Assembly: GCA_029237685.1 (NCBI GenBank) | Contig: JAQZBV010000004.1 | Coordinates: 1-64,000, forward strand | Direction: 5' to 3' | Source of the DNA: Cytophagaceae bacterium | GTDB lineage: Bacteria > Bacteroidota > Bacteroidia > Cytophagales > Cytophagaceae | DNA: 64,000 nucleotides | Shown: positions 4,901 to 62,487 of the stretch, piece by piece | Layout: every line of letters starts with the position of its first letter | Position numbering within the stretch: the stretch's first letter is position 1 | Notes under the pieces: generated by a model | What the model saw: the letters and a program-made list of their open reading frames with translations, nothing else | The model's database searches: none | What the model was told of the DNA's origin: nothing | Translations under genes and position numbers: made by a program

Positions 4901-5944
4901 ATGACCCTTTCCGAAGAAAATATTGATTTTAGCGAAGACGACGTAGAGTTATTTGAACACCACCGTATTGTGGTAGACAAAGGACAAAGCATGATTCGCA
5001 TCGATAAATTCTTGATGGATCGGATTCAGAATGCCACGCGCAGTAAATTGCAAAATGCCATTCATGCAGAAACGTTGAAAGTCAATGACCGTGCGGTAAA
5101 ACCCAGCTATAAGGTTAAACCGGGCGACACCATCATCGTTTCCCTTCCGCATCCGCCAAGAGAAGATGTGGTGCTGCCGGAAAATATTCCATTGGACATT
5201 ATTTACGAAGACGAGGAATTATTGATTGTTAATAAACCCGCCGGTATGGTCGTGCATCCTGCACACGGCAATTGGACAGGGACCTTAGTGAATGCCTTAT
5301 CCTACCATTTGAATAATTTGCCTTCCTCCAACGGAGACATTCGTCCGGGCTTGGTGCATCGTATCGATAAAGACACATCCGGTTTATTGGTGATCGGGAA
5401 AACAGAATACGCGATGAGTTTTCTAGGGAAACAGTTTTTTGACCACAGCATTGAACGTACTTATTATGCCATCGCCTGGGGAGTTCCTAATCCTCCGAAT
5501 GGCACCGTAGACGCTCCCATTGCCCGTAGTATGAGAGATCGCAAGATCATGGCCGTGTATGAGGATGAAGAACAAGCCAAGCGAGCCGTGACCCATTATA
5601 AAGTATTAAAGGACCTGCAATATGTATCGTTGATTCAGTGTAACCTGGAAACAGGGAGAACACATCAGATTCGCGTACACATGAAGCACATCGGCCATCC
5701 TTTGTTCAACGATGCGACCTATGGCGGCGACAGAATTGTAAAAGGAACAGTATTTTCTAAGTACAAACAATTTGTAGATAATTGTTTCGAGCTCCTTCCC
5801 AGACAGGCCCTGCACGCCAAGTCTATTGGGTTTATTCACCCCACCACAAAAAAATTCATGCAGTTTGAGTCCGAGCTACCGGAAGATTTTAGGTTAGCGC
5901 TGGAGAAATGGGAAAGGTACAGTGATCAGAAAACTGAAAACTGA
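4901..5944 (+). CDS. rluD: RluA/RluD-family 23S rRNA pseudouridine synthase
   Basis: S4-like N-domain (MIRIDKFLMDRI) then VNKPAGMVVHPAHGNWTGTLVNAL, GLVHRIDKDTSGLLVIGKT, GRTHQIRVHMKHIGHPLFND. Confidence 0.92.
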   Translation: MTLSEENIDFSEDDVELFEHHRIVVDKGQSMIRIDKFLMDRIQNATRSKLQNAIHAETLKVNDRAVKPSYKVKPGDTIIVSLPHPPREDVVLPENIPLDIIYEDEELLIVNKPAGMVVHPAHGNWTGTLVNALSYHLNNLPSSNGDIRPGLVHRIDKDTSGLLVIGKTEYAMSFLGKQFFDHSIERTYYAIAWGVPNPPNGTVDAPIARSMRDRKIMAVYEDEEQAKRAVTHYKVLKDLQYVSLIQCNLETGRTHQIRVHMKHIGHPLFNDATYGGDRIVKGTVFSKYKQFVDNCFELLPRQALHAKSIGFIHPTTKKFMQFESELPEDFRLALEKWERYSDQKTEN

Positions 5945-6011
5945 AAATCTGAAACCGAAAATCTGAAACCGAAAATTCTCTCAGCTTCTCAGTTCTCTGT
6001 TCTCAGTTTTT
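5926..6011. repeat. Family B inverted repeat (gaaaactgaaaac-type tandem units)
   Basis: Left gaaaactgaaaactgaaaatctgaaaccgaaaa; right cagcttctcagttctctgttctcagttttt. Overlaps the 3' ends of both flanking convergent CDSs. Confidence 0.9.
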
Positions 6012-6797
6012 CTTCGCTTCTTCCCAATACCCATTCATCTCCTCCAACGTCATATCATGTAGTTTCTTTCCTGCAGCTTTCGCTTGTTCTTCCAGGTAGG
6101 TAAAACGTTTGATGAATTTTTTATTGGTACGCTCCAAAGCATCTTCGGGATTGATGTCTATGAAACGGGAGTAATTGATGATGGAGAAAAAGATATCTCC
6201 CAATTCATCTTCCATTTTTTCTTTATTGACTTCAGGAGCATTGGCTTCTTTTTCAAATTCGTCTAATTCTTCTTTTACTTTATCCCACACCTGGTCTTTG
6301 TTGTCCCAATCGAAACCTGCTCCCCGGGCTTTTTCCTGAATACGGATAGCCTTTACCATGGCAGGCAGAGACCTTGGCACACCGGCAAGGATGGTCTTGT
6401 TGCCGCCTTTTTCTGTTTGTTTGATCTGTTCCCAATTTCTTTTGACCGCTTCTTCATCTTCTGCTTTCACGTCGCCATAAATATGAGGGTGACGGCGGAT
6501 GAGTTTTTCACACAAACTGTCCATCACATCTTTGATGGTAAAGTCGTTGGTTTCGGAGGCTATTCTGCTGTAAAAAACGAGGTGCAGAAAAATATCCCCC
6601 AATTCTTTTTTGATCTCGTCCATGTCTTTTTCTACGATGGCATCAGAAAGTTCAAAGGTTTCTTCAATGGTTAAATAGCGCAGGCTGTCAATGGTTTGTT
6701 TTTTATCCCATGGGCATTGTTCACGCAGTTCGTCCATTATTTTGAGAACATTGGCGAAGGATTGAAGGGTTTCATTTAGCGGAACGACTTTACTCAT
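6003..6797 (-). CDS. mazG: Nucleoside triphosphate pyrophosphohydrolase MazG
   Basis: 264 aa; LREQCPWDKKQTIDSLRYLTIEETFELSDAI, KKELGDIFLHLVFYSRIA, second ELGDIFFSIINYSRF. Confidence 0.93.
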   Translation of the reverse strand: MSKVVPLNETLQSFANVLKIMDELREQCPWDKKQTIDSLRYLTIEETFELSDAIVEKDMDEIKKELGDIFLHLVFYSRIASETNDFTIKDVMDSLCEKLIRRHPHIYGDVKAEDEEAVKRNWEQIKQTEKGGNKTILAGVPRSLPAMVKAIRIQEKARGAGFDWDNKDQVWDKVKEELDEFEKEANAPEVNKEKMEDELGDIFFSIINYSRFIDINPEDALERTNKKFIKRFTYLEEQAKAAGKKLHDMTLEEMNGYWEEAKKN

Positions 6798-6825
6798 GGC
6801 AATGGAGTTAGATGGAATGTATGGT

Positions 6826-62200: not shown

Positions 62201-62413
62201 CCGGATAAAAAAAGCGGTGAATACATCTCTTATAAAGTTCCGGTCACACCACAAGACGAAGCCATACTCAAAGGCCAAATCAAAGAAGTCTACCGCAACA
62301 TCCTCGATCTCAAATTTGACGTAGGCTGCGGCGACAAAGATTGTACCTGGTGTAATTTTGTGAAAGAAAATTACAAAGAAGGCGAGCTCTCCTTATTGAG
62401 TAGTGAAGAATAG
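59276..62413 (+). CDS. UvrD/PcrA-type ATP-dependent helicase with C-terminal PD-(D/E)XK nuclease-like domain
   Basis: [78 protein letters not shown]...VIDYKTGNP, terminal [12 protein letters not shown] cysteines. Confidence 0.95.
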   Translation: [1045 protein letters not shown]

Positions 62414-62418
62414 AAGAT

Positions 62419-62487
62419 AGAGAACTGAAAACGGAGAACTGAAAACCAGAAGCATAGGTCAGTTTTCAGTTCTCCGTTTTCAGTTTA
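62419..62487. repeat. Family B inverted repeat
   Basis: tagagaactgaaaacggagaactgaaaacc ... cagttttcagttctccgttttcagttta. Confidence 0.95.

Follow-up and report, generated by a model that had tools for sequence, protein, structure and literature searches.

The closest published case to the repeats described here is the heptanucleotide P6b hairpin of cyanobacterial trnL introns (Nostoc). In this stem-loop of the tRNA-Leu(UAA) group I intron, two very different classes of 7-nt motif form a similar structure, and several independent class replacements have been reported at that one position, with replacement of the whole region favoured over stepwise change (PMC4476775). Direct repeats of the heptamer TAACTGA are found in Beggiatoaceae, cyanobacteria and a few Bacteroidetes, mostly upstream of start codons and with one inverted set in the main genome (PMC4679880). 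Two further bodies of work bear on short palindromes. Quasipalindromes undergo template-switch mutagenesis, the Ripley model (PMC7202029, PMC8604942, PMC8794818); such switching homogenises the arms of inverted repeats and inverts their spacers (PMC8604942), and it creates hairpins (PMC8794818). REPIN/RAYT elements (PMC3116915) resemble the hairpins described below in being short intergenic palindromes with many copies and several families per genome.

We analysed a 64,000-nt stretch of DNA (hereafter the window), which is contig C90 of the 4.02-Mb draft genome G000, and found it to carry many hairpins whose arms are made of 7-nt repeats. As in the trnL P6b hairpin, one class of repeat has replaced another at the same position. 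Unlike P6b, which is one locus in a catalytic intron of cyanobacteria, the hairpins here occupy dozens of intergenic slots in the sampled part of one genome, comprise about eleven families and belong to Bacteroidota. They do not lie in a tRNA-Leu group I intron: they stand between protein genes, and Rfam gave no match within the window. Like the TAACTGA repeats they are intergenic 7-nt arrays, and one of their families, F (AGTTATC/AGTGGTC), includes the TAACTGA unit; unlike those direct repeats, they are inverted, hairpin-forming and mostly found at gene ends. In the open-access literature we found no description of a genome-wide version of such a system.

For comparison we used three sister genomes, G001, G002 and the genus-mate Chitinophagaceae bacterium RYN_299 (G003). 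All genomes compared are drafts, and two are identified as MAGs or resemble them. A preliminary description of the window had named palindromes of two families, B and C, made of short tandem units. These were all recovered, and their arms are 7-nt unit arrays; at three B loci (6826, 43597 and 62423) and two C loci (51276 and 57941) the arms are 94-100% complementary, while the palindrome at 5926, also present, turned out to be a degraded or mixed B. The heptamer elements of the window, with the state of the same slot in the sisters, are:

5926..6005: degraded or mixed B palindrome (units GAAAACT and GAAAATCTGAAACC) between the convergent rluA-family (+) and mazG (-) genes; family C in RYN_299 and G001
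6826..6905: B palindrome between the divergent mazG and glmM-like genes; family E in RYN_299 and G001, empty in G002
14118..14203: C palindrome with a 36-nt loop; also C in RYN_299 and G001, empty in G002
16069..16217: inverted D arrays (AGTTGTT) with a 97-nt loop; family H in G001, D' in RYN_299, empty in G002
35880..35940: B palindrome that overlaps the stop codon of a beta-CASP-type nuclease gene lying upstream
36100..36167: B palindrome with an outer G-family unit (GAGATC)
40037..40090: C palindrome between convergent genes; family K (GTGAAGA) in RYN_299 and G001
40616..40716: inverted D arrays; also D in RYN_299, with a homologous loop
43597..43672: B palindrome in the gap from polA to tpiA; G002 is empty here, RYN_299 has C and G001 has G (GARATCN)
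51276..51341: C palindrome filling the 59-bp gap between the convergent plsY-like and anmK genes; family I (AGAGCGGAGAAAC) in RYN_299
57941..58000: C palindrome downstream of a separate intrinsic-terminator hairpin; all three sisters carry different elements
62423..62485: B palindrome flanked by convergent genes; all three sisters carry family C

The state in G000 is derived at three of these slots. At 62423 all three sisters have C, so the change was from C to B, and at 6826 and 40037 several sisters agree on another family (E and K, respectively, in both G001 and RYN_299). Palindromes reach gene ends: at 5944 and 35881 the gene upstream takes its stop codon from the heptamer arm (AACTGA). 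A perfect 14-copy array of TAACAAC, the D family unit, occupies positions 1-99 at the start of the contig, where the assembly probably broke.

The hairpins form one class, with arms that are arrays of 7-nt units in about eleven families: B (GARAACN), C (SNASGAG), D (AGTTGTT), D' (AGTCGTT/AGTGGTT), E (GARATGN), F (AGTGGTC/AGTTATC), G (GARATCN), H (AAGTGGT), I (AGAGCGGAGAAAC, 6/7 nt), J (GAGTATG) and K (GTGAAGA). A survey of 1.44 Mb of G000, in stretches partly chosen by B/C hits, gave 218 strong hairpins (score of at least 16), and a mononucleotide shuffle of 400 kb gave none. The best period was 7 in 118 of the 218 and any other period in four. TRF also finds the arrays, which are intergenic tandem 7-nt units as in heptanucleotide tandem repeats of the STRR/LSSR type. 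The G-rich strand forms the 5' arm in 107 of the 118 period-7 hairpins and the C-rich strand in 2; adjacent arrays are oriented X..X' in 32 B, 42 C and 17 D pairs and never X'..X. Nearly every family keeps its G-rich polarity toward the centre, and this, together with units common genome-wide and unique loops, is what might be left by a templated repeat-adding enzyme (a reverse transcriptase, telomerase-like) writing heptamers at DNA breaks. We find this hardly credible, since no RVT_1 domain protein is present in G000, G002 or G003 and independent addition at two ends would not mirror the order of units across the arms.

That order is the locus-specific feature. The preliminary description had claimed that paired arms share private variants and are more alike within a locus than between loci. 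Plain base identity was dropped as a measure because it is too blunt for 7-nt repeats: it gives no difference for B (0.799 within loci vs 0.801 between) and a small one for C (0.774 vs 0.740). In its place we used unit order, detecting arrays on each strand separately, pairing them afterwards and comparing each arm's own partner with shuffled partners. As the strands are searched independently, loci are not picked for being palindromes. Arms shared more unit information with their own partner in C (4.16 vs 2.03 bits shuffled, z 9.6, n=43) and in B (3.14 vs 2.23 bits, z 4.9, n=55), and D showed no excess (0.94 vs 1.00, n=18). In B the excess was found with loops of up to 25 nt (z 5.8) and disappeared with longer ones (z 0.6); long-loop C loci kept it (z 2.4, n=9). 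Single units are anything but private, with GAAAACC, GAAAACG, CAAGGAG and GAACGAG each occurring 12-26 times in the sample; what belongs to a locus is the order of its units, mirrored across the two arms. The original claim thus holds in part: for unit order in C and in short-loop B, and not for single units or for long-loop B.

Part of this effect is ascertainment, because any palindrome chosen as a palindrome has matching arms and because the long-loop B and D loci lack the excess. It could be argued that nothing more is needed, palindromes matching by definition and their units being simple repeats, and the equal base identity of B within and between loci agrees with this. Such an account is very improbable: the excess in C and short-loop B survives arm-independent detection and shuffled partners, so that for C it is already contradicted, and the slot conservation with family swaps described next does not depend on the arm-sharing test.

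Conserved slots with whole-family swaps between species are the larger fact, and one that the preliminary description missed. We compared 120 intergenic regions of G000 and RYN_299 using flanking coding anchors, covering 1.44 Mb of G000 and about 0.75 Mb of RYN_299. A palindromic heptamer pair was present in both genomes at 23 regions, only in G000 at 9, only in RYN_299 at 1 and in neither at 87 (odds ratio 222, Fisher p=2e-16); the RYN_299 stretches were not picked for holding palindromes, and the choice of G000 stretches by B/C hits raises occupancy in G000 while leaving the association intact. Of the 24 palindrome positions in RYN_299, 23 are thus occupied in G000 too. As in trnL P6b, complementary heptamer arms have been replaced by another class at orthologous sites, the family differing at 17 of the 23 shared slots. 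Post hoc, we noticed that most swaps are between families whose ends match (GAG or AGT). At one slot (L043:16686 vs L158) the arms on either side of a conserved terminator core are of family E in one species and of family B in the other. Swapped slots have mostly changed their loop too, and same-family slots mostly keep homologous loops between species. Among the slots compared, no intermediate of a swap was caught and no donor locus was identified for any swapped arm.

The families also differ in abundance between species. Three-unit B hits number 371 in G000 as against 4, 0 and 4 in the sisters, and 15 further members of the family have none; among the genomes compared, B is amplified only in the species of G000. 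For C palindromes, with the own genome left out, only RYN_299 matched among the other species of the searched genome contigs. The F family occurs here and there across the phylum, in 36 of 396 Bacteroidota genomes. The pattern used for the K family is partly symmetric, and in the phylum scan it matches its own reversed control. That reversed pattern had more than 120 and more than 220 matches in the distant Bacteroidota G119 and G131, another large heptamer-like family. Phages searched with the polA-tpiA palindrome and viral contigs scanned with the C pattern gave nothing.

Species-specific amplification, the intergenic position of the palindromes and the existence of RAYTs and REPINs in G000 would all suit mobile REPIN/MITE-like elements, each family being a transposable palindrome with a strong site preference whose old copies are lost. 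As most swapped slots also have a different loop, the arrival of a new hairpin by insertion and the loss of the old one could account for single swapped loci. For the class as a whole we regard mobility of this kind as unlikely. Occupancy overlapping at 23 of 24 positions is not what independent insertion would give, the kept core with swapped arms at L043:16686/L158 speaks against it, and the copies of a family differ in their loops and ends. REPINs keep their sequence across copies, arms and core alike; here loops are unique to each locus and unit order differs. In G002, empty sites could be aligned to occupied ones, with flanks too diverged to define element ends, as the question of MITEs and target-site duplications would require. 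The genomes carry Y1_Tnp genes (8 in G000, 8 in RYN_299, 11 in G001 and 3 in G002), and none of 20 Y1_Tnp loci has a heptamer palindrome as its pair; on this ground we rejected a REPIN/RAYT origin of the class. Unlike REPINs, then, the heptamer hairpins have neither a conserved core nor a RAYT; the REPIN-like elements in these genomes are non-heptamer pairs flanking Y1 transposases, and most RAYT-like Y1_Tnp genes are flanked by such a pair of their own, including the family found at 44568-44661 of the window.

Next to mobility, selection on pairing has to be considered: each slot would need a hairpin, as a terminator or an mRNA 3'-end barrier and especially between convergent genes, any family would suffice, and arms would match since unpaired variants are removed. 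Heptamer hairpins are indeed two to three times as dense between convergent genes (0.284 per gap) as between tandem ones (0.125), and divergent gaps have the fewest (0.077); the folds are very stable, with RNA folding z of -6.4 to -12.9 for the five named B/C loci and the further C hairpin at 40030-40100, and the slots are conserved between species. On the other hand, an ordinary terminator stands by itself within the loop of several slots, 4 of 10 mapped slots lack a palindrome in G002, and pairing supplies neither coordinated family swaps nor inverted loops. Selection on RNA pairing would moreover give an excess of G-U over A-C mismatches, and in stems oriented to the transcript we counted 33 G-U and 32 A-C. 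We consider this explanation rather unlikely, though selection for a hairpin at gene ends fits the convergent-gene enrichment and may act alongside template switching.

Loops and stems carry features that favour rewriting at the DNA level. At L031:1925 vs L143 the loop is inverted between species (z 5.6), and at the slot at 5929 it is opposite in RYN_299 and G001 (GGACAATCTTTTTCC vs GGAGAAAAGATTGTCC). Usable stems are available at few same-family slots (about five C and one B). In the 30-bp stem of a C/C slot (L045:11406 vs L152) three changed positions are identical in both arms, two of them restoring pairs and one not, and at L012:19662 vs L147 one pair changed from A-T to G-C beside two one-sided differences. 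The coordinated double substitutions that the preliminary description proposed to look for in sister orthologs are therefore clear at the first of these slots and partial at the second. Loops of C, E/G, F and H have no 11-mer common to different loci; heptamer-type 11-mers recur between loops of B and of D loci, and D and D' share a few with terminator-type A/T runs. In non-heptamer elements, loops recur between loci.

Homogenised arms, short-loop dependence and loop inversion are what the Ripley model predicts, and all three are seen here, with inversion and coordinated changes at few loci. Between arm rewriting and selection on pairing, the two options offered originally, DNA-level rewriting is favoured because the B effect is bound to short loops, loops are inverted, C/C stem changes are coordinated and G-U is not in excess; selection for some hairpin at the slot may remain. 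The Ripley model alone leaves the replacement of one repeat family by another unexplained, and family replacement at fixed slots with fresh loops requires a further step. We infer both the template switch and this further step, for which ectopic copying is the simplest addition. In the resulting proposal, to which we give about an even chance, DNA-level fold-back template switching homogenises the arms, and ectopic copying followed by fold-back replaces families in fixed slots. A hairpin would make the replication fork switch templates, so that one arm serves as the template for the other (quasipalindrome correction), homogenising the arms and sometimes inverting the loop, while 7-nt slippage would change the number of units. 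At a stalled slot, the nascent strand may pick up a few units from a hairpin at another place in the genome through short matches such as GAG or AGT; the copied units would then be folded back into the second arm, and both arms would swap family at once. Ectopic copying with fold-back would keep the slot and make a new loop, and one family, here B, could come to fill many slots of a lineage with no need of a transposase. Against this stand the absence of arm homogenisation in family D, the failure to catch an intermediate or a donor for any swap, the new loops at most swapped slots and the small number of slots with coordinated changes, which are clear at one and partial at another.

More tentatively, these observations may reflect a genome-wide, transposase-free system in which competing heptamer families repeatedly overwrite conserved hairpin slots by templated copying and fold-back. 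If so, the repeat families would be selfish sequences that spread by converting existing hairpins and not by inserting, and the data point to a class of repeat that replaces its rivals at fixed sites without any transposase. Coordinated changes in two arms are normally read as proof of a selected RNA structure; here they come without wobble bias and extend across whole families, suggesting that DNA-level rewriting can mimic covariation.

The non-heptamer palindromes of these genomes are diverse in their own right. The REPIN-like pair GGTGTCAGGTC/GACCTGACACC at 44568-44661 of the window also flanks a RAYT-like Y1 transposase gene on another contig of G000 (C33, L191). Across the RAYT loci of the four genomes (L191-L209), each genome holds several different RAYT genes, and most of these have a palindrome type to themselves (CTGGCGCAAGAT.., CCCCGCAGGGTC.., GGCGCCAATATT.., GGCGCCAGTTTAAC.., GCGGATGATCC.. 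and GTCGCAAGTCTTAGCG), a rich RAYT/REPIN set for one genus. Finally, inverted pairs of CCCCTAAATCCCCTGAAGGGGACTT, some with recurring inner sequence, are found at 4708-4839 of the window and at L021, L022, L033, L063, L095 and L110, and form a mobile-looking element family without an assigned transposase.
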